A stretch of 34,336 nucleotides of DNA from a virus: the IMG/VR virus record IMGVR_UViG_3300037504_000541, positions 1 through 34,336 of that record; one strand, written 5' to 3'. A program made the translations under genes and the position numbers. Position 1 is the stretch's first letter. The number at the start of each line of letters is the position of its first letter. Of this stretch, positions 1,567 to 26,378 are shown piece after piece. The notes beneath the pieces are model-generated. The model was given only the letters and a program-made list of their open reading frames with translations, made no database searches and was not told where the DNA came from.

Positions 1567-2409
1567 ATGCCTACCCTGAACCCCGACGGCTGGAGCGTCA
1601 AAGGCTGCTCGATTATCTATGCCCCACGCGGGCAAGCTGGCGAGTATTCCAGGCTGGCCACAAACCCCTATCGCGGATGCGGGCATCAGTGCGCCTATTG
1701 CTATGTGCCCAAAGTGCTGCGCATGCCGCGTCCCGAGTTTGACGCCGGTGCGGAGCCGCGCCCCGAGTTTCTTGATAAGTTGCGCAAAGATGCGGCGAAG
1801 TACCAGACACTTGGTATCACCGAACAGGTGATGCTGTCGTTCACGACAGACCCCTACCACCCATTCGACAACTCGCTCACGCGTCCTGTGCTGCAAACAC
1901 TGCAAGCCCACGGTCTGGGCATTTGCACGCTCACAAAGGGCGGCAGTCGTGCATTGCGCGACCTTGATTTGTTCAGGCCAGAGCGGGATGCGTTCGCCAG
2001 CACGCTCACGTCGTTGGATGATGATTTCAGCCAGAAATGGGAACGCGGTGCAGCAGTGCCCGATGATCGCATCAATACGTTGCGTCTGTTCCACAAGGAG
2101 GGAATCTTCACGTGGGTTAGCTTGGAGCCGACACTGAGTACCGAGGCCAGTTTGCAGATCATTGAGCATACGCACGAGTTTGTTAATCTGTATAAAATAG
2201 GCAGGGCAAACTATTTGCCAATGACTGGCACCACCGATTGGGAGAGGTACACCTATCGCATTCTTGAGTTGTGCCATCGCCTTGGCGTGCGGCATTACAT
2301 CAAAAAAGACCTGCAAGGGTATCTCCCGGTGGGATACGAAAACCCGCGCTATATCACACAGCATCACGGTTCGGCTCCTGCAAAGACTGAGCAACTCGCT
2401 CTACTATAA
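1567..2409 (+). CDS. Radical SAM protein of the SplB/COG1533 type
   Basis: A 280-residue protein. The cluster-binding motif CGHQCAYC has cysteines at residues 38, 42 and 45 (CX3CX2C), the signature that binds the [4Fe-4S] cluster used to cleave S-adenosylmethionine. The arrangement (RGCGHQCAYCYVP followed by a TIM-barrel-like sequence with VMLSFTTDPYHP and LTKGGS) is that of the spore-photoproduct-lyase-like SPL family, whose phage and bacterial members mostly lack known substrates. The ATG at 1567 is chosen over an upstream in-frame ATG at 1534 because GGAG sits seven bases before it. It is the only rightward gene inside a leftward late block, has its own promoter, and its last 56 bases overlap the convergent methyltransferase 2. 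This is typical of an added (moron-like) gene. Function is not assignable beyond the family. Confidence 0.85.
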   Translation: MPTLNPDGWSVKGCSIIYAPRGQAGEYSRLATNPYRGCGHQCAYCYVPKVLRMPRPEFDAGAEPRPEFLDKLRKDAAKYQTLGITEQVMLSFTTDPYHPFDNSLTRPVLQTLQAHGLGICTLTKGGSRALRDLDLFRPERDAFASTLTSLDDDFSQKWERGAAVPDDRINTLRLFHKEGIFTWVSLEPTLSTEASLQIIEHTHEFVNLYKIGRANYLPMTGTTDWERYTYRILELCHRLGVRHYIKKDLQGYLPVGYENPRYITQHHGSAPAKTEQLALL

Positions 2410-3562
2410 GTCCTTCCGCCTCGCAGCGTTGCAAGATAACCTCGCAGTATGCCTCGCTGATCTCGCACCCATAGCATCGGCGTCCGGTACGGTGGGCTGC
2501 GATAATGGTGGTGCCGGAGCCGAGGAATGGGTCATATAGCACACCGTCAGTGCAATTTGCAATCAGCATGCGCACCCAATCCAGCGGTTTTTCGTGAGAA
2601 TGGCGACCATCGGCATGTAGTTTGGTTATTGGGGCAACAAATACATCAGACAGGTGCTTGCCACGAGGATCAGGCGTAAATTCATATTCTCCGCGTGTAT
2701 TGCGTACTATGCGTTCATCACCGACCTCACCGTAATGTGCGCCATCAAATTGGTAATTTGCAACATCCCCATACCAAAACGCGAATTTGCCTCGTTGCAA
2801 CGGACGATTAGGGGTATACCACGATGTCACACAATCCCATACAAATACCCACGTAGGGGAGCCAAATAGCGTTATAACATCAGCGGCGCGTCGCCCATCG
2901 CAAAATGCCAGCACAGTACTGGTTGTGTCTGCTGTATACGACACGGCAGCATCCCACGGAGGGTCGTATATCACCGCGTCCGCCCGCTCGCATTGCATCA
3001 GCCGCTCCACCGTCGCTGGGTCGGTGCAGTCTCCACAGATGAGCCGATGCATGCCGCCGATGAGCCACACGTCACCCGCCTGTACGCGGCATGGTGCGGC
3101 GTCGTCGGGTTCAAACTCATCGCCACCGCTGCCGGTTTCGGGAAGTTCCGGCGTCAACCCATCGAGTAATGCGCTATACTCCTGCTCATCGAATCCCAGG
3201 CTATTCAGATCGAAATCAGCCTGCTGCAACTCGTCAAGCAGCGCGGCAAGTCCGGCGTCGTCGGATTCAGCCCCGCGTCGCGTCTCGTTGTCGGCGACGA
3301 GGTAGGCGAGCGCCTGCTCTTCTGTCCAGTCGTCTGGTAGTTGCGTGACACGCAACGTCTGGTAGTTGAGGTGCTGCGCTACCAGGTACACGCCGTGGCC
3401 TGCGATGATGGTATCGCCGTGCACCACAATCGGGCGTACCTGCCCAAACTGGCGCAGGCTGGCAGCAAGCCGCTCAATCTGCTCTGGCGGATGCTGATTG
3501 TAGTTGCGCGAGTGCGGTGCCAGCGTATCAATGTCGCGTGTTGTCTCGATTGGTTCAGTCAT
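2354..3562 (-). CDS. ParB-domain DNA methyltransferase 2 (paralogue of the gene at 140-1426)
   Basis: A 402-residue protein from the ATG at 3562 (MTEPIETT, the same start peptide as the paralogue). An upstream in-frame ATG at 3610 would add 16 residues but lies inside the preceding small gene. A ParB-like domain occupies residues about 10-95, motif IV is DPPW at 200-203 and the SAM motif FLGSGT is at 346-351. The arms are close to those of methyltransferase 1, while the central 204-342 region, holding the target-recognition part, is unrelated by eye and Trp replaces Tyr in motif IV. It probably methylates a different sequence. The start overlaps the stop of the upstream 54-residue gene (ATGACTGA), indicating translational coupling. 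Confidence 0.9.
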   Translation of the reverse strand: MTEPIETTRDIDTLAPHSRNYNQHPPEQIERLAASLRQFGQVRPIVVHGDTIIAGHGVYLVAQHLNYQTLRVTQLPDDWTEEQALAYLVADNETRRGAESDDAGLAALLDELQQADFDLNSLGFDEQEYSALLDGLTPELPETGSGGDEFEPDDAAPCRVQAGDVWLIGGMHRLICGDCTDPATVERLMQCERADAVIYDPPWDAAVSYTADTTSTVLAFCDGRRAADVITLFGSPTWVFVWDCVTSWYTPNRPLQRGKFAFWYGDVANYQFDGAHYGEVGDERIVRNTRGEYEFTPDPRGKHLSDVFVAPITKLHADGRHSHEKPLDWVRMLIANCTDGVLYDPFLGSGTTIIAAHRTGRRCYGCEISEAYCEVILQRCEAEGLIVERVAQSLQEPNRDAV

Positions 3563-3719
3563 CTCGATATCGTATGCGTTTTTGCCAATCAGAAATGCGA
3601 TCGAGCACATTGAATATTTCAGCGAACACCACTAACGCCAACCCCCCCCCCAACGCACCAGCGAACACCATAGCCGACACTCCGATCATGAGTATAGATA
3701 AATCGTACAGCGTATCCAT
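3555..3719 (-). CDS. Small probable membrane protein (54 aa)
   Basis: A 54-residue ORF with a hydrophobic segment at residues about 8-37 (LILIG-type start, then VFAGALGGG and LALVVFAEIF) followed by a basic, amphipathic C-terminus (RISDWQKRIRYRDD). This is the layout of a single-pass membrane protein with a cytoplasmic tail. AGGGG lies seven bases before the ATG. The three glycines at 24-26 are encoded within a run of ten G, a slippage-prone tract. The stop overlaps the start of methyltransferase 2. No family is recognised. A holin-like or superinfection-type role cannot be excluded, but nothing in the sequence shows it. Confidence 0.6.
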   Translation of the reverse strand: MDTLYDLSILMIGVSAMVFAGALGGGLALVVFAEIFNVLDRISDWQKRIRYRDD

Positions 3720-5920: not shown

Positions 5921-6478
5921 TTACATGTTCCCTATGCGCGGCAGCATAACAGACGGAGTCCATTCCGCCTCTGGCGTATTGTAGCGCCCTGTATAGAGCG
6001 TTGTGTTGTCCTCCACAACATGGAATTTAATCAGACCGATGCGCATGCCAGGATAGAGCAAAATGGCATCCGGGCTGTAGTTAAACAACTCCAATGTCCA
6101 ACGCGAGCAATAGCCCGCGTCACCAATGCCTGCCGAGACATGGACTGTCAGCCCCCATCGAGCCGCGGTGCTTCTGGTTTCCAGTGTTGGTTCAATATCC
6201 GGCACCGTCGTGCCGATGTGCTCATCGGTGTGCGCCAGCGCGAACGATAACGACGGCAGCCGGAACGGATTATCTGGTGCCACATCGGCAACGAGCATGA
6301 AACGTCCTTCTGGTGCCTGTGTGGCAATGTCCACGTCGCGGCCCATCGGGCGCGGTATCCAAAAATTACTTCCCAGATGTACATCGATATGTGTCTCGAT
6401 ACGACATTGCGGCGCTGGCGTGCAGACAATGCTGCCATTGGCCAGTGCTGTCTGTATGGCGTCATTTCCTAATATCAC
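5921..6478 (-). CDS. dcd: dCTP deaminase / dUTPase-family nucleotide enzyme
   Basis: A 185-residue protein. It contains ETRSTAARWGL, matching the RSSxAR motif of dCTP deaminase, then AGIGDAGY...TLELFN with the catalytic-type Glu in TLEL, then LYPGMRIGLIKF, the family's C-terminal signature. Dcd deaminates dCTP to dUTP (or dUMP in bifunctional forms) and supplies thymidylate precursors in the cytoplasm. The start is a GTG at 6478 with AAGGAG seven bases upstream. The same frame stays open far upstream through the GC-rich array, but that extension has no ribosome site and is repeat translation. It is the last gene of the leftward early operon. The usual DPG triplet is DAG here, so deaminase activity is likely but not certain. 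Confidence 0.8.
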   Translation of the reverse strand: MILGNDAIQTALANGSIVCTPAPQCRIETHIDVHLGSNFWIPRPMGRDVDIATQAPEGRFMLVADVAPDNPFRLPSLSFALAHTDEHIGTTVPDIEPTLETRSTAARWGLTVHVSAGIGDAGYCSRWTLELFNYSPDAILLYPGMRIGLIKFHVVEDNTTLYTGRYNTPEAEWTPSVMLPRIGNM

Positions 6479-6541
6479 GGTTAATCTCCTTCTGCAACTC
6501 AGTTGTTGTATGGGCAGTTTGCGAACGTGCCCAGGTTCCCA

Positions 6542-6897
6542 TGCCTCGCCATGCCCAGCCCGGCCTCGCCCTGCCCCGCCTAGCCCCGCCCCGCCTGCCT
6601 CGCCCTGCCGCGCCATGCCTGGCCCTGCCGCGCCGTGCCAAACCCCGCCTTGCCTAGCCCCGCCTGCCTCGCCATGCCGCGCCGCGCCGTGCCTGCCCCG
6701 CCTGCCTCGCCATGCCGCGCCACGCCGCGCCAGGCCTCGCCAGGCCTCGCCTCGCCTGGCCGCGCCCCGCCCTGCCTGCCTCGCCATGCCTTGCCAAGCC
6801 AAACCCGGCCAAGCCCTGCCCCGCCATGCCCCGCCTGCCGCGCCATGCCATGCCTCGCCCTGCCAGAGCTAGCCACACCTTGCCACGCCTGCCGTGT
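6542..6897. repeat. Array 1 of the degenerate pentamer GCCNN (about 70 units)
   Basis: About 355 bases in which GCC recurs every five bases on the plus strand (GCCTC, GCCAT, GCCCT, GCCCC, GCCGC, GCCTG and similar), with an occasional four-base step. Positions 4 and 5 vary while GCC is nearly invariant. There is almost no sequence of any other type. It fills the 419-base gap between the deaminase start (6478) and the stop of the next gene (6898); the remaining bases 6479-6541 hold the deaminase ribosome site and no recognisable promoter. On the operon's mRNA the array reads as GGC every five nucleotides, so it is very G-rich on the transcribed product. Long ORFs in several frames here are artefacts of the repeat. 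Confidence 0.9.
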
Positions 6898-15577: not shown

Positions 15578-17367
15578 ATTTATTACAACAGGCGATGGGT
15601 ATGGGCGTGATGCCCGAACCATCACAGACAAATGGGTTTGTGCCATCGAAGTACCAGGCGTCCATTTTTGAATGGGCGCAACACGGCACCGGGAATGCAT
15701 TAGTGGAGGCTGTCGCTGGCAGCGGCAAGAGCACCACACTTGAACAACTCACCAGGCGTTTGAATGGCTCTATCCTGTTTTGTGCCTTTAATAAGCACAT
15801 CGCAGAGCCAATGCAGAAGAAGTTGCAAAACGCGAATGTGAGCACGATTAATAGTATCGGGCATCGCACTGTAGCGCGCCATCTGGGCCGCGTATCGCTT
15901 GATGATCGAAAGTACCGCACCATTGCCCGCGAACTGACCGCACCACTAGCGAACGATTATGATGAGCGCCGCAAACTGTCAGGCGCGCTGTATGACCTGT
16001 GTCGGTTTGTGCGCATCACATTGACCGACCCAGACAGCCAGACAGCACTGGATCGTCTGGTACGGCATTATGGCGTTGAGGACACAACGACCGAACTATT
16101 ACTACTGGTCAAGGTCGCCATCGAACGCGGGAATAATCTGGCGGCAGAGCAAAAAGTAATCGACTTTGCTGATCAACTCTACTTGCCACATCGGTGGGCG
16201 CTGACACCAGACCAATATGATTGGGTGTTAATTGACGAAGCACAAGACCTAAACGCCGCACAACTCGATTTAGTGCTGAAATGCGTTAATCAAACCGGGC
16301 GCATTGTAGCGGTGGGCGACGGCAAACAGGCTATCTATGGTTTTGCTGGAGCCGATGCCGCGAGCTTCCAGAAGATATCCACCGCAACCGATGCAACTCG
16401 GTTGCCATTGTCGATCTGCTATCGTTGCCCGTCCGGGCATCTCGATCTGACCCGCGAGATTGTGCCAGAAATTGAAGCTCGTGACAATGCGCCTGATGGT
16501 ATTATTGAGCATATTGGCGAGCAAGACCTGCACAAACACCTTCAGCCAAATGATCTGGTGCTCTGTCGCCTTACAGCGCCGTTGATTGATGCGTGCCTGG
16601 AATTGATAGCGCGTGGCACGCCTGCCACCGTGCGCGGGCGCGATATCGGTAAGCAACTCACAAAGATCGTTGATCAGGCCACTGATAACGGCGATAAGCC
16701 GTGGGAACGCTTTATCTGGCACCTTGACGCCTATCGTGTTGAGCAGGCCGCGAAGTTGGGTGACGACGACGAGAAACTGCAATCGCTCGAAGACCGGGTA
16801 AGTGCTGTGCGGCGCTGCTATCAGGAATGGCAGAGCGCCAACGCTGATACTTTCAAGCGGCGGCTTGAAGGGTTGTTCAACGACAAGGACAGCATTGTCA
16901 CACTTTCGACTATCCACCGTGCGAAGGGTCTGGAAGCGGAGCGCGTATTCATCCTGCGCCCAGATAAACTGCCGTTACAACTCCGCAACCCGCAGCAGTG
17001 GCAAACCGAACAGGAATGGAACCTGCGCTATGTAGCGCTCACTCGCAGCAGGCACTATCTCTGTTTTGTACATCAGGAGACGCCACCAGAAGCCCCACAA
17101 GAGCCAGAACAGAAACAAGGGGTGGCAGACATCACAGAACCAGATAATGACACGTCTCCGTGTCACTCAGGCACACCACAATCGTTGTATAAACAAGTCT
17201 GCGACCTGGATGACGAGCATAGCCGCATACAGGCAGATCGCAAGTTAAAACGCCGGGAACTTGCGCAGATAGTGATGGATTCGGGCGGCGAACTGGAAGT
17301 TGAGGGTGCGCTCTTGAGAGCGTATGCGAAGGGCGACGAATTGGTATTGCAAATCAGGACGCGATGA
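15574..17367 (+). CDS. UvrD/Rep-type superfamily 1 DNA helicase
   Basis: A 597-residue helicase. Walker A AGSGKST at 48-54, Walker B DEAQDL at 221-226, motif III GDGKQAIYGFAGA at 248-260, motif V STIHRAKGLEAERV and motif VI LRYVALTRSRHYL are all present in order. SF1A helicases move 3' to 5' on ssDNA and unwind or strip proteins from DNA. No nuclease domain is visible. GAGGGAG precedes the start, which overlaps the RecT-like stop. Likely role: replication restart or recombination. After motif VI comes a Pro/Gln/Glu-rich linker and a helical tail of about 70 residues (CDLDDEHSRIQADRKLKRRE). Confidence 0.9.
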   Translation: MNLLQQAMGMGVMPEPSQTNGFVPSKYQASIFEWAQHGTGNALVEAVAGSGKSTTLEQLTRRLNGSILFCAFNKHIAEPMQKKLQNANVSTINSIGHRTVARHLGRVSLDDRKYRTIARELTAPLANDYDERRKLSGALYDLCRFVRITLTDPDSQTALDRLVRHYGVEDTTTELLLLVKVAIERGNNLAAEQKVIDFADQLYLPHRWALTPDQYDWVLIDEAQDLNAAQLDLVLKCVNQTGRIVAVGDGKQAIYGFAGADAASFQKISTATDATRLPLSICYRCPSGHLDLTREIVPEIEARDNAPDGIIEHIGEQDLHKHLQPNDLVLCRLTAPLIDACLELIARGTPATVRGRDIGKQLTKIVDQATDNGDKPWERFIWHLDAYRVEQAAKLGDDDEKLQSLEDRVSAVRRCYQEWQSANADTFKRRLEGLFNDKDSIVTLSTIHRAKGLEAERVFILRPDKLPLQLRNPQQWQTEQEWNLRYVALTRSRHYLCFVHQETPPEAPQEPEQKQGVADITEPDNDTSPCHSGTPQSLYKQVCDLDDEHSRIQADRKLKRRELAQIVMDSGGELEVEGALLRAYAKGDELVLQIRTR

Positions 17368-19544
17368 TGATACATGACACAAAAACTGCTATATTGCAGG
17401 CACTCGAACCATACCAGAATACGCAACATGGCGAAGGCCGCTACAACACACCGTGGCGGCCCGATGCCGATGGTGGCACGCTGTCAGTATCAGAGAACAG
17501 CGACGGGTATCTGGTCTGGTACGATCACAAAGACGAGGAAGGCGGGAGCCAGCGGGAGTTGGCTGAGCGTCTGAATATCCAGACACCCAACGACACGCAC
17601 CCATTGGGCAACATCTGGGAGCGCGCCGGGTTAACGCAGGGTGCCACATACGCACCGAAACCAGCGTACACCTCACTCGAAGACTACGCTACAAAGCACG
17701 GTGTGAGCAAGCATGTTTTTAGCCGCGCCGGGTGGAAAGAAACCCAACGACGCGGACACAAAGTGCTTGCTATTGCAACACAAACGGGTACGCGGTACAG
17801 GTATCTAGACGAAGAAAAAGCCGGGCTGAAATACGATCATGACAAAGGTTGGCAACCGTGCTGGTATGGATTGGGTGTGGCAATCAGTATGCAACTCGAC
17901 TGCCTGATCATCTGCAATGGTGAGGCGTCTACCGTGGTGGCACACCATTACGGTGTGCCAGCCATCTGTGTACCAGGCGGTGAGAAGAAGTTACCGCAGC
18001 CGCTTGTAGAAGAACTTCAGGAGCGCTGGCAGGGTCGGGTGTATGTGGCGCTCGACAGCGACGATAAAGGCCGCAAGGTTGCGCCAAAAATTGCCGAGCA
18101 GGTGAAGGGCACAGCGATTGATCTGGGTCATGATTTCGGCTATGACCTGGCTGATTTTTGCCGTGACAACCCCGAAGAGACGTTGCAGACACTCGAAAAG
18201 TGCGCCCGCACTGACACAGTCTATACGCCCTCCTGGATACAAGAAGGCATTACGCTGTTTGCGCTGCGTCGTAAAGAATTCGATGAGTTGCAGTGGGTTG
18301 TGCCGGGCCTGCTGCCGGAAGGCTGTTGCTTGATGGCAGGCAAACCCAAAACGAAAAAGAGTTGGCTGGCGCTCGGTCTGTCACTGGCTGTGGCAATGCA
18401 GCAGCGGAAGGCGTTTGACAGTCTGGATACACGATCCGGCGAGGTGCTGTATCTCGATCTGGAGAGCAATCAACGCCGCATGAAGAGTCGCATCGGGGCG
18501 ATGTTAGAGGATGCCATTGAATGGCCTGACAATTTCCATCTTTTCACTTCCTGGGAACGCGGCGAGGCGGGCATTCAGATGCTTGAGGAATGGATGCAGC
18601 ATCATCCGAAAACCGCGCTCATTGTAGTGGACATCCTTCAGAATATCAGGGCACCACGAGACAAGAATGCAAACCCATATGACGACGATTACAATGCTGT
18701 CAAGCCACTGAACCAGTTTGCAGAGCGCCACCGCATCACCATTATTGCTATCCATCACACCCGCAAGGCGAAAGCCGATGATGTGTTTGATGAAATCAGC
18801 GGATCTACTGGTTTAACGGGCGGTGTCGCAACGATGTGGATCATCGGGCGCGTGCCATCCTCTGATGACATGGTGCTGCATATCCGGGGCCGTGACGTTG
18901 ACGATGAGGAACTGGCGCTCTCCTGGGACGATTACGCCACTGAGCACCGCATTGAGGGCGACGCGGCTGTATATGCCATCACGAGCGAGCGCCAGCGCGT
19001 TCTGGAGGTAATGCAGGAAGGCATCCAGTACACGCCCAAAGACATCGCCGCCGAGTTGGAAACCACCGTCAATGCCGTCCAGAAGCAACTGCGTCACCTT
19101 GCCGATAGCTTACTTGTTCGCAAAGTGGGTTATGGCAAATACGAGAAAATTTGCAGGCAGAGTAGGCAGAGTGGGCAGAGTGGGAATAGTAGGCAGAGTA
19201 GTCACTCTGCCTACGGAGCTTCAACTCTGCCTAACTCTGCCTGGGGGGGTGGCAGAGTTAACGACGCATCAGGAAGCGATAAAACGGCATTTTTTGGCAA
19301 CTCTGCCTACTCTGCCTGCTATTCTATAGGCGAAAAATCGCAAAAAGAGTACATCGGGAATGTACTCAGCGCACACGCATCCAGCACACTCCGCATTGCA
19401 ATCGACAATGGACAGTACTGGTTAACGGATGATCAAGGCCATATCATTTGGCCCGAGTCATTTGCTAGTCAGGCGGATGCAAAAAATCAGGTTACACAAT
19501 GGCTGAATGAGAATGGCGGATATAACGCTGTGGAGGGCTACTAA
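17364..19544 (+). CDS. Primase-helicase fusion (TOPRIM-like domain plus RepA/AAA_25-type helicase)
   Basis: A 726-residue protein. The N-terminal 80 residues resemble a primase DNA-recognition domain without zinc cysteines. A TOPRIM-like domain follows, with ICNGEAST at 183-190 and ALDSDDKGRK at 229-238. A RecA-fold helicase comes next: AGKPKTKKS (Walker A variant of the RepA group) at 325-333, LIVVDIL at 419-425, IAIHHTRKAK at 461-470, then STGLTGG. A winged-helix-like segment (YTPKDIAAELETTVNAVQKQL) is followed by a Ser/Gln/Gly-rich linker encoded by the 8-mer repeats at 19156-19316 and a last 60-residue domain. It would prime and unwind DNA at phage replication forks. The start overlaps the UvrD stop. 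Confidence 0.87.
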   Translation: MMIHDTKTAILQALEPYQNTQHGEGRYNTPWRPDADGGTLSVSENSDGYLVWYDHKDEEGGSQRELAERLNIQTPNDTHPLGNIWERAGLTQGATYAPKPAYTSLEDYATKHGVSKHVFSRAGWKETQRRGHKVLAIATQTGTRYRYLDEEKAGLKYDHDKGWQPCWYGLGVAISMQLDCLIICNGEASTVVAHHYGVPAICVPGGEKKLPQPLVEELQERWQGRVYVALDSDDKGRKVAPKIAEQVKGTAIDLGHDFGYDLADFCRDNPEETLQTLEKCARTDTVYTPSWIQEGITLFALRRKEFDELQWVVPGLLPEGCCLMAGKPKTKKSWLALGLSLAVAMQQRKAFDSLDTRSGEVLYLDLESNQRRMKSRIGAMLEDAIEWPDNFHLFTSWERGEAGIQMLEEWMQHHPKTALIVVDILQNIRAPRDKNANPYDDDYNAVKPLNQFAERHRITIIAIHHTRKAKADDVFDEISGSTGLTGGVATMWIIGRVPSSDDMVLHIRGRDVDDEELALSWDDYATEHRIEGDAAVYAITSERQRVLEVMQEGIQYTPKDIAAELETTVNAVQKQLRHLADSLLVRKVGYGKYEKICRQSRQSGQSGNSRQSSHSAYGASTLPNSAWGGGRVNDASGSDKTAFFGNSAYSACYSIGEKSQKEYIGNVLSAHASSTLRIAIDNGQYWLTDDQGHIIWPESFASQADAKNQVTQWLNENGGYNAVEGY
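19156..19316. repeat. Ten copies of GGCAGAGT in both orientations (possible origin)
   Basis: The 8-mer GGCAGAGT occurs at 19156, 19165, 19174, 19192 and 19251, and its complement ACTCTGCC starts at 19204, 19224, 19234, 19300 and 19309. Several copies are nine bases apart, and the arrangement can fold into hairpins (for example 19192-19211). It lies within the primase-helicase coding sequence, in a low-complexity linker, the kind of place where lambdoid phages keep their origin iterons. Confidence 0.8.
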
Positions 19545-19739
19545 TGATGCGAACATTTGCCTCGCTCTTTAGCGGCGGCGGTGGCGCATCCTACTGGATT
19601 AGCGCACTCCAGGAGCAGTCAAGGCTCTGGCGTCCCCTGTGCGGTGGCGGCGGCGGCGGCAGAGGCTTGCGAGGCCAACCGCGCTCGCAAACGCGCGCAG
19701 ATTCAACAGGTTGCGCAATGACTACAGGAGCAAGGTGGA
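19544..19739 (+). pseudogene. Truncated duplicate of the Dcm-type gene start fused to an unrelated remnant
   Basis: The first 44 bases from the ATG at 19544 are identical to the first 44 bases of the methyltransferase gene at 20857 (both encode MMRTFASLFSGGGGA). After that the sequence is unrelated, and the frame becomes Gly/Arg-rich and runs on into the next gene in the wrong frame. A second frame, open to a TGA at 19719-19721, encodes an Ala-rich tail (AVAAAAAEACEANRARKRAQ) that looks like the end of a lost protein. The primase stop overlaps this ATG (TAATG), as if the original methyltransferase or its neighbour once started here. It is a rearrangement scar, probably not a functional gene. 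Confidence 0.6.
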
Positions 19740-20597: not shown

Positions 20598-20860
20598 TGG
20601 CACGCAAACCTGATCACCATCCCAACCAGGCTAACCTGGAGATGAGCGGGGTGCAGCAGTACTGCCCACTGTCCGATCTCGCAGCGCTGGCCGAGCGCCG
20701 CCGCGTACTATACGCGGAACTCGAACGGCTAATATCCACGCTCGGCATCGATGCGCATACCGCGCCATACTGGACATTGGACAACGACGATGCCCCACCG
20801 TGGTACAGCCTGCCGAGAGCCGTGGAACGGCTGCGAGAGCAAGTAGAGGGGATGGGATGA
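20597..20860 (+). CDS. Small hypothetical protein (87 aa) between two methyltransferases
   Basis: An 87-residue protein, coupled to both neighbours by overlapping stop/start codons (TAATG and TGATG). It has a helical core (LSDLAALAERRRVLYAELER), a Trp/Pro-rich segment (YWTLDNDDAPPWYSLP) and a C-terminal helix (RAVERLREQVEGMG). No family is recognised. It may assist one of the methyltransferases, by position only. Confidence 0.7.
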   Translation: MARKPDHHPNQANLEMSGVQQYCPLSDLAALAERRRVLYAELERLISTLGIDAHTAPYWTLDNDDAPPWYSLPRAVERLREQVEGMG

Positions 20861-21990
20861 TGCGAACATTTGCCTCGCTCTTTAGCGGCGGCGGTGGCGC
20901 TGATATTGGCGCGATTCAGGCAGGCTACACGCCGATATGGGCTGTCGAGTATGACGCAGCCATAGCCGCCTGGCACACGCACAACATGCCTGATGCACAG
21001 ATGATTGTGGGTCCTGTGCAGGATGTGGATTATGGCGCGTTGCCTGCTGTGGCCTGGTTGCACGCAAGCCCGCCGTGTCCGAATTTCAGCGTTGCTAAAA
21101 ACAATGCCACTGAAACTGAACTGGATATCGAGATGGCACGCGGCACGACCCGCGCAATCCAGGAACAGCAGCCGCATGTGTTTAGTCTGGAGCAGGTCTA
21201 TGGTTATCGCAATAGCGTGTCATTTGCGCTGATTGTGCAGGCATTGCGTGCTCTACGGTATGACGTGCAATGGTGGCATCTGAACGCTGCTGAATACGGC
21301 GTGCCCCAGACGCGCCGCCGTCTAATCCTGGTGGCGCGCCGTGACAGGTACGTGGTGCGGCCTGCTGCTACGCACTGCAAAGACGGGCGCGCTGACATGT
21401 TCGGCGGGCTGTTGCCGTGGATTGGATGGTATGAGGCAATACAGGATATCATAGACACCCTGCCAGATAGCGAATTCGCGCCGTGGCAACTGGCACGCCT
21501 GCCTGCGAATGTGCGAGAGAGCGTGCTGCTGAGCAATGCACGGACCGAATACAGCAACGGGTTGTTTTCTGGCACCGAGCCGTCATTATCAATCACACGA
21601 CAACACAACGGACGGTTGCGCGCACTGCTGCTGGACGGGCAGGCCAACGCCAATGGCACAACCTGCACGAGCGTCGCTGATTGCGTGCCTGCGTTTGCGG
21701 TCAAGGCCCAGTCAGGAGCACGACACGCGGCGCGGGCGGTGTTGATAGGAGACGGTGACACATACCGTCCGGTGGTTTCTGGCAACGAACCATCTCCTAC
21801 ACATGGCGCGAGCGCCATTGCTCGCGCACTGGTGCCACACCGCGTCGTGAAAATGACACCGCGTGCGCTGGCGCGCTTTCAATCATTCCCCGACTGGTAT
21901 GAACTGCCACAGCGCAATGCACTGGCGGGCAGGATTATCGGCAATGCGGTTCCGCCGCTGTTGATGCAGCGGGTGATGGAATCCCAATGA
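20857..21990 (+). CDS. C5-cytosine DNA methyltransferase (Dcm type, EQV variant)
   Basis: A 377-residue protein from the ATG at 20857. Motif I is LFSGGGGADIGAIQAG (residues 8-23), the catalytic loop ASPPCPNFS has its Cys at 74, motif VI is LEQV at 111-114 (normally ENV), motif VIII is QTRRR at 151-155, and motif X is IIGNAVPPLL near the C-terminus. The enzyme transfers methyl to cytosine C5. Gln for Asn in ENV is uncommon but conservative. The target-recognition region (about 180-320) is variable. An upstream in-frame ATG at 20800 is inside the 87-residue gene and is not preferred. It is the last gene of the rightward early operon. Confidence 0.9.
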   Translation: MMRTFASLFSGGGGADIGAIQAGYTPIWAVEYDAAIAAWHTHNMPDAQMIVGPVQDVDYGALPAVAWLHASPPCPNFSVAKNNATETELDIEMARGTTRAIQEQQPHVFSLEQVYGYRNSVSFALIVQALRALRYDVQWWHLNAAEYGVPQTRRRLILVARRDRYVVRPAATHCKDGRADMFGGLLPWIGWYEAIQDIIDTLPDSEFAPWQLARLPANVRESVLLSNARTEYSNGLFSGTEPSLSITRQHNGRLRALLLDGQANANGTTCTSVADCVPAFAVKAQSGARHAARAVLIGDGDTYRPVVSGNEPSPTHGASAIARALVPHRVVKMTPRALARFQSFPDWYELPQRNALAGRIIGNAVPPLLMQRVMESQ

Positions 21991-22069: not shown

Positions 22070-22118
22070 GTTGGATGAATTGAATGAATTGAATTGAATG
22101 AATTGAGAGGACAGAATA

Positions 22119-23932: not shown

Positions 23933-23978
23933 CTATGACCAATTATGCAGTAATTTGCTATCATATCCCTCACAGCTC

Positions 23979-24014
23979 TTGACACCACTGTATCATAGTG
24001 CTACAATGGTGTCA
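23979..24014 (+). promoter_or_regulatory. Cassette promoter B with dyad operator
   Basis: TTGACA (23979-23984), 17 bases, TACAAT (24002-24007), with TGACACCA (23980-23987) and TGGTGTCA (24007-24014) as inverted repeats, identical to promoter A. Confidence 0.85.
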
Positions 24015-24063
24015 GTTGGATGAATTGAATGAATTGAATTGAATGAATTGAGAGGACAGAATA

Positions 24064-24297
24064 ATGACACGAATAATGAGCCAGGCACGGATCGATGCAC
24101 TGAACGAACAGATGGTAGACGGGAAAACTGTACACGAGGTGGCGAGAGAGAATGGTCTGGAACTGGTTCGGTGGTACGACGAGAGCGGCGGACTCTACAG
24201 AGACTACGACGGATATCTGGTATTTGGATGGGTATATGGAGACGAGGGGTTCGATGACCAGATTAGCGATGACGATATTGACGATGACCATGTGTAA
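24064..24297 (+). CDS. Cassette protein B (77 aa, truncated paralogue)
   Basis: A 77-residue protein identical in its first 55 or so residues to the 190-residue cassette protein A, then ending in an acidic tail (DDQISDDDIDDDHV). It lacks the helical domain of protein A. It is identical to the protein at 26129. The strongly acidic end is unusual and could mimic nucleic acid, which is speculation. Its start and ribosome site are shared with the other copies. Confidence 0.72.
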   Translation: MTRIMSQARIDALNEQMVDGKTVHEVARENGLELVRWYDESGGLYRDYDGYLVFGWVYGDEGFDDQISDDDIDDDHV

Positions 24298-24313
24298 CTG
24301 ATGTTTTACGCCC

Positions 24314-25963: not shown

Positions 25964-26043
25964 ACGACACCCCGTTCATCTATGACCATCGTGAATAACC
26001 AATATATTTATGCAGTAATTTTCTATCATATCCCTCGCAGCTC

Positions 26044-26079
26044 TTGACACCACTGTATCATAGTGCTACAATGGTGTCA
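26044..26079 (+). promoter_or_regulatory. Cassette promoter C with dyad operator
   Basis: TTGACA (26044-26049), 17 bases, TACAAT (26067-26072), with the TGACACCA/TGGTGTCA inverted repeat ending at 26079, identical to copies A and B. Confidence 0.85.
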
Positions 26080-26128
26080 GTTGGATGAATTGAATGAATT
26101 GAATTGAATGAATTGAGAGGACAGAATA

Positions 26129-26362
26129 ATGACACGAATAATGAGCCAGGCACGGATCGATGCACTGAACGAACAGATGGTAGACGGGAAAACTGTACAC
26201 GAGGTGGCGAGAGAGAATGGTCTGGAACTGGTTCGGTGGTACGACGAGAGCGGCGGACTCTACAGAGACTACGACGGATATCTGGTATTTGGATGGGTAT
26301 ATGGAGACGAGGGGTTCGATGACCAGATTAGCGATGACGATATTGACGATGACCATGTGTAA
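26129..26362 (+). CDS. Cassette protein C (77 aa, identical to cassette protein B)
   Basis: The predicted protein is identical to that at 24064-24297, including the acidic tail. It is the last rightward gene before the convergent tail operon. Because no pentapeptide-repeat gene follows, this copy shows that the promoter-plus-small-gene unit can exist without a cargo gene. Confidence 0.7.
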   Translation: MTRIMSQARIDALNEQMVDGKTVHEVARENGLELVRWYDESGGLYRDYDGYLVFGWVYGDEGFDDQISDDDIDDDHV

Positions 26363-26378
26363 CTAATGTTTTACGCCC

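Follow-up and report, generated by a model that had tools for sequence, protein, structure and literature searches.

The array-bearing gene and its surroundings

The window, by which we mean the whole 34336-base stretch analysed (virus record IMGVR_UViG_3300037504_000541), carries on its plus strand a replication helicase gene with a repeat array in its 3' part. The gene and the parts of its product are as follows.

17364–19544, + strand: 726-aa open reading frame that contains the array and encodes a primase-helicase-like AAA_25 replication helicase (PF13481, phrog_239)
18258–18773, + strand: AAA_25 domain, aa 299–470 (Pfam match)
18981–19154, + strand: C-terminal winged helix (wHTH), about aa 540–597 (AlphaFold2 model, PDB profile match)
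19071–19100, + strand: codons for the recognition-helix residues NAVQKQLRHL; identity at these ten positions is predictive of the iteron word

PF13481 (AAA_25) was matched at E 7.4e-28 (97.9 bits against a gathering cut-off of 27). The preliminary description had spoken of a primase gene, a name backed by phrog_239 (DNA primase/helicase, E 1.4e-15) and by a Toprim_2 match below threshold. AlphaFold2 modelling of 18942–19166 (75 residues, 76 aligned sequences) gave three helices and a two-strand wing in the order H-H-H-E-E (pLDDT 80.6), and a profile of this region found winged-helix regulators among PDB chains, the best at E 3.1e-8. Foldseek with the model returned nothing at E 0.001, its best match being E. 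coli MarR (3.3e-3, TMq 0.72), and its matches were weak and of the MarR/Z-alpha kind; a PDB sequence search with the whole 726-aa protein returned nothing at E 0.01. The first iterons start within a few codons of the wing, and a tail of 130 residues extends beyond the winged helix. Since the host gene is adjoined by genes for a UvrD-like helicase and a RecT-like annealing protein, its neighbourhood is a replication module.

The window contains several other repeats. The first bases of a cytosine-methyltransferase-like gene recur as an exact 44-bp direct repeat at 19544–19587 and 20857–20900, on either side of an open reading frame for a Dam-like methyltransferase (gene names by reading of the ORFs), which suggests an insertion or duplication right beside the array. 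Further downstream, 327 bp are repeated exactly at 23973–24299 and 26038–26364 (66 to the left and 261 to the right of 24039/26104), with a third copy at 22094 that is 97% alike over 200 bases; these copies lie between pentapeptide-repeat-like ORFs. GCC-NN units form a degenerate, G+C-rich tandem array (10/15 bp) across an ORF end at 6539–6865, and two similar minus-strand ORFs (140–1426 and 2354–3610), ParB-like plus DNA-methyltransferase-like by reading, are separated by another gene.

An 8-bp word repeated in both orientations

Scanning both strands of the window revealed ten exact copies of the 8-bp word GGCAGAGT, all of them at 19156–19316 and none elsewhere in the 34336 bases.

19153–19319, both strands: outer inverted repeat, arms 19153–19177 and 19295–19319, 92% complementary
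19156–19163, + strand: iteron 1, GGCAGAGT, exact match
19165–19172, + strand: iteron 2, exact match
19174–19181, + strand: iteron 3, exact match
19183–19190, + strand: degenerate iteron GGAATAGT, 2 mismatches, 9-bp phase kept
19192–19199, + strand: iteron 4, exact match
19204–19211, − strand: iteron 5, inverted, exact match
19224–19231, − strand: iteron 6, inverted, exact match
19234–19241, − strand: iteron 7, inverted, exact match
19251–19258, + strand: iteron 8, exact match
19259–19299, both strands: spacer separating iteron 8 from iteron 9, candidate site of strand opening, with conserved ATAAAACGGC and a T-run
19300–19307, − strand: iteron 9, inverted, exact match
19309–19316, − strand: iteron 10, inverted, exact match

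That five forward and five inverted copies within 161 bases exceed chance, as had been claimed, was confirmed by 100 dinucleotide shuffles of the window, which contained 0.95 copies on average and four at most. Redrawing synonymous codons 2000 times while the protein of the segment was held fixed gave a mean of 0.17 copies and never more than three, so that the protein sequence does not explain the array. The nine-base spacing ascribed to several copies applies to three of the nine neighbouring pairs (19156–19165, 19165–19174 and 19300–19309), and the 18-base gap between iterons 3 and 4 is filled by the degenerate copy at 19183, which is also in phase.

The array stretch encodes RQSRQSGQSG-like low complexity, and Tandem Repeats Finder also detects 9-bp tandem repetition at 19155–19201, both of which would fit repeats selected as protein, i.e. 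a Ser-rich linker, or left behind as slippage debris. This explanation is highly improbable in view of the synonymous redraw, the inverted copies, the use of two reading frames per orientation, and the position past the stop codon of 20 among 53 strong arrays of the family described below. The repeats of the window, which are more than chance or coding would produce, make up an array of an 8-bp DNA site that occurs in both orientations.

Joint change of winged helix and word in a close relative

Relatives of the protein were found at ten viral loci (78–94% identity), nine of which keep GGCAGAGT, with ten copies in each of seven loci (L004–L010), seven in L011 and nine in L012. The tenth, L013, has zero copies in its array region, and GTCACTCT/GTTACTCT-type words at 9-bp steps take their place in the same layout as in the window. 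Identity between L013 and the window protein is 83% for aa 1–290, 94% for aa 291–530 (AAA) and 58% for aa 531–597 (wHTH), followed by 37% in the iteron region and 53% in the tail, while the wHTH of the other nine relatives is 92–98% identical to that of the window. In an alignment of 124 bases from 19213, the two sequences agree at 61 of 84 positions outside and 19 of 40 positions inside five iterons (Fisher p 0.009); as the iteron bases are less alike than those around them, these L013 sites were altered in place and not merely imported as a block. Winged helix and word thus changed together in L013. The preliminary description had named an 8-mer not conserved in relatives despite a conserved protein as evidence against an origin; read literally, L013 is such a case, but its DNA-reading domain diverged along with the word, so the loss does not refute the proposal. 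A reading in which all L013 sites had been flipped was dropped; read in place, GGCAGAGT has become GTCACTCT, with four of eight bases kept.

In L011, the hairpin loop between AACTCTGCC and GGCAGAGTT (6559–6585) reads ACCCCCACA and is inverted in place relative to the window (19232–19260, TGGGGGGGT), as if the hairpin had flipped. A word search with GGCAGAGT-N-GGCAGAGT retrieved 45 viral stretches. L018, L036 and L046 were rejected as array relatives, being unrelated Ala/Ser coding repeats. L047 has the window's word and layout after a wHTH; to call it a wHTH-only gene would be too strong, as its ORF is broken by the contig end.

Arrays behind the winged helix across the AAA_25+wHTH family

For the family survey, loci were taken from viral contig scans (80 loci kept of 259, 158 and 218 confirmed), from a genome scan (80 kept of 336 confirmed) and from plasmid and phage records, resulting in 301 AAA+wHTH loci that formed 166 clusters at 80% identity, 162 of them with room downstream. 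The alignments did not include Nonomuraea (L058), whose stretch contained stop codons. Lag-9 repetition in the 300 bases after the wHTH reached z 28.1 against 2894 control windows, accompanied by lags 18 (z 14.4), 27 (z 6.3), 36 (z 4.1), 8 (z 11.2) and 17 (z 6.7), and it exceeded all control windows of the same locus in 85 of the 162 clusters (9.1 expected). An exact 7-mer count (35 of 59 clusters) had proved too strict and was replaced by one-mismatch counting, by which 127 of the 162 clusters had a both-strand motif count above that of 20 shuffles, where about 7.7 clusters would be expected; the remaining 35 had no array by this copy test, which random windows, one per locus, passed in 16 of 162 cases. 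In all 127 array clusters, a word specific to the lineage occurs both directly and inverted, with neighbours of the same orientation mostly 9 (322) or 8 (107) bases apart.

Among 53 strong arrays (above the 99th percentile of the controls), 31 lie inside the ORF, two across the stop codon and 20 after it, indicating that the conserved item is DNA at a place and not a protein repeat. Across this large family, arrays are kept 3' of the wHTH codons, inside or just past the gene. The 8291-base plasmid pATHE01, for instance, has its array inside the AAA ATPase gene, with six ATTCACTCT-type copies followed by inverted ones, and no other evident initiator appears among the seven genes listed in its possibly incomplete gene table.

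Eleven control helicases whose match ends before the wHTH (IncQ RepA and ten phage proteins) showed lag-9 maxima of 9–16, and the copy test flagged four of them in at least one of two regions; related helicases whose match reaches the wHTH (L484–L486) were flagged in one region in two of three cases. Notable among the four flagged controls are two Escherichia phages (L480 and L481), which, with a helicase-primase without wHTH match, carry a GCGGGAC-type cluster after the stop codon (copy scores 6.5 and 7.0). Four loci (L084, L085, L087 and L091) have no array at the gene end and their strongest one 1.8–2.2 kb downstream; these distant arrays (about 6400–6760) consist of dense ATACACG/GTACACA/GTTTACA words.

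Recognition-helix residues track the word

Among the 127 array clusters, a higher wHTH identity goes with more similar words at most levels of AAA identity, while the converse relation is nearly flat. A first covariation test gave partial correlations of 0.143 for the wHTH and 0.119 for the AAA domain, both beyond all permutations. In a joint regression, word similarity was predicted by the ten helix-3 residues (beta 0.221; 0 of 999 permutations as high) and by the 55 residues before the wHTH (beta 0.211; 0 of 999), and not by the other 45 wHTH residues (beta 0.009; 432 of 999) or the remaining 190 AAA residues (beta −0.028; 751 of 999). Because the 55 preceding residues, whose own signal may be one of lineage, also predict the word, part of the signal may be lineage. 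For pairs with AAA identity below 0.50, mean word similarity was 0.37 when fewer than 20% of helix residues were shared and 0.72 when at least 80% were (18 pairs). The earlier proposal of the protein's own winged helix as candidate reader of the repeats holds up in this covariation and in the joint change in L013, and binding of each putative site by the recognition helix of the same protein is well supported by these sequence comparisons.

A residue–base rule was read by eye and fixed before fresh loci were fetched. For helices of the form [VITL][RKD]XL[L/M/V], the residue at X corresponds to the first base of NTnA(C/G), Q going with A, K/R with G and F/Y with C; according to a second rule, R/K one position before X goes with a final C and D with a final G, and a third pairs QT with GTCAC and KT with GTCC. 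In the discovery sample, the X rule was right for 33 of 37 clusters, wrong for two and without a call for two. The test set comprised 41 fresh clusters (40 testable, 25 with arrays), and on eight array-bearing ones the X rule was right five times and wrong three times: it was correct for L443–L447, from the search of an alphaproteobacterial order (5/5), and incorrect for L456, L459 and L471 from Chloroflexota (3/3), as well as for L382, which has no significant array. The second rule fits six clusters (L441 and L443–L447) and fails for L456, L459 and L471; the third fits two of two (L439 and L410, the latter without a significant array). These failures on fresh clusters make the rule local to part of the AAA_25+wHTH family, and the window's own word falls outside it.

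Predicted structure of the array

The mixed orientation of the copies had been noted to allow hairpins, and the predicted single-strand fold of the segment is indeed very stable (−56.2 kcal/mol, z −10.06), the outer repeat closing a predicted cloverleaf with inner hairpins at 19189–19214 and 19232–19260 (G-run loop). The L013 segment, built of other words, is predicted to fold with a similar outer stem and branches (−44.3 kcal/mol, z −6.62). Such likeness despite different words is what would be expected if the large stem-loop or cloverleaf mattered and not the word, as proposed for pRN1, and essential or predicted stem-loops lie downstream of the prim-pol/SF3/wHTH genes of pRN1 and Bordetella phage BIP-1 in the accessible part of PMC4234260. 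A stem, however, needs neither the 9-bp repetition within one arm (z 28.1 in the family) nor a word similarity that follows the recognition helix, and we consider an origin read by structure unlikely.

The largest array spacers are moderately richer in A+T than their loci (0.449 vs 0.397; higher in 78 of 119). The copies are arranged in orientation blocks, most often +- (45 of the 127 array clusters), +-+ (36) or +-+- (31). G5 or C5 runs, about twice as common in array regions (71 of 127) as in control windows (478 of 1689), are a possible priming or pausing element. The GC-skew profile, which had been suggested as a check, did not point to the array: the skew follows gene strand, switching sign near 12.9 and 26.9 kb but not at 19.2 kb.

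A candidate self-encoded origin

From analogy and position, we infer that the array is the phage origin, and the likely reading is that the helicase gene carries its own iteron origin, which the wHTH of the encoded protein would bind. Opposed blocks of sites at the gene of a helicase with a site-reading domain fit head-to-head loading of two helicase assemblies. In this scheme, protein units would line up next to each other on both opposed blocks of sites and gather AAA_25 helicase subunits on both flanks; the A+T-richer spacer would open, perhaps with the help of extruded hairpins, and the helicase, together with its primase-like part, would start bidirectional replication. Being adjacent, site and reader would travel as one unit, whose specificity could switch as between the window and L013.

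All binding evidence would fit equally a protein-binding site with another job, such as autoregulation, control of copy number, incompatibility or centromere-like partition. In favour of such a function are the second iteron cluster of P4 (crr), which serves control, and the four loci whose strongest array lies 1.8–2.2 kb downstream, away from the gene end. Against it, the family arrays are found inside or after the 3' end and not at a promoter, and in SaPI and SCCmec the known or putative origins of the initiator helicases are iterons immediately downstream of their genes, as far as described in the accessible part of PMC7581432; we rate another job as quite unlikely. For the reading as a self-encoded origin, the family suggests a wider statement that is on balance probable: AAA_25+wHTH helicases of phages, plasmids and chromosomal mobile elements would form a large undescribed class of replicators, with a 3'-end origin of opposed, 9-bp-phased words that is partly readable from helix residues and with reader and sites switching together. 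A literature search, with subscription papers mostly outside its reach and an earlier description thus possible, found no description of AAA_25 genes with such arrays. If the proposal is true, the origins of many uncharacterised mobile elements could be predicted from sequence alone, embedded DNA sites would account for the unusual, repeat-rich tails of many 'AAA family ATPases', and more than 100 natural helix–word pairs would be at hand for studying joint changes of initiator and origin specificity.

Comparison with known replication systems

In phage lambda, origin iterons lie inside the coding sequence of the initiator O. The window shares this position of iterons within the gene of what is here a candidate initiator, but the repeats of lambda are direct and longer, and O is not known to be a helicase. 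The type I iterons of P4 lie outside the gene, at the two sites ori1 and crr, whereas the arrays of the window and its family occupy the gene's 3' end or adjoin it, in opposed blocks with a 9-bp phase. AAA_25 has a RecA-type fold; the P4 helicase belongs to SF3, so that the window protein lacks the SF3 helicase which the P4 alpha type requires. According to the accessible part of PMC4234260, P4 alpha combines in one protein a primase-like part, a hexameric helicase and a winged helix at the C-terminus, the last of which binds short repeats of ori, and the window protein resembles it in uniting a primase-like part, a helicase and a C-terminal winged helix.

The wHTH protein ORF904 of pRN1 has an essential cis region directly 3' of its gene; between conserved flanks, the sequence of this region is variable yet remains complementary (PMC4234260, accessible part). 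A wHTH replication protein and a cis region at the 3' side of the gene, for the window a putative one, are common to both systems; pRN1 differs in having an SF3 helicase and an AEP primase, and its authors, in the same part of that account, found neither iterons nor specific binding. The window is not of the pRN1 type, as its predicted stem-loop is built of iterons and lies inside the gene. On the Streptomyces plasmid pWTY27, 8-bp words in both orientations form a long inverted repeat by rep and are bound by RepA in vitro (PMC3583192, accessible part). This arrangement of 8-bp words is like that of the window, although the pWTY27 origin is non-coding and the window array is inside coding sequence. 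Residues of the iteron-related domain of geminivirus Rep vary with iteron bases, as described in the accessible part of PMC2974675; covariation of residues and bases is common to both cases, while Rep is a rolling-circle protein of plant viruses with an unrelated fold.

In SaPI Rep and SCCmec Cch2, the C-terminal domain of an initiator helicase binds short iterons directly downstream of the gene (PMC7581432, accessible part). Their helicases are of other families, their iterons lie outside the coding sequence, and the accessible part of that account gives no helix-to-word rule. By this analogy, the window protein would work like SaPI Rep without being a member of the SaPI/PICI Rep group, from which it differs in its domains.
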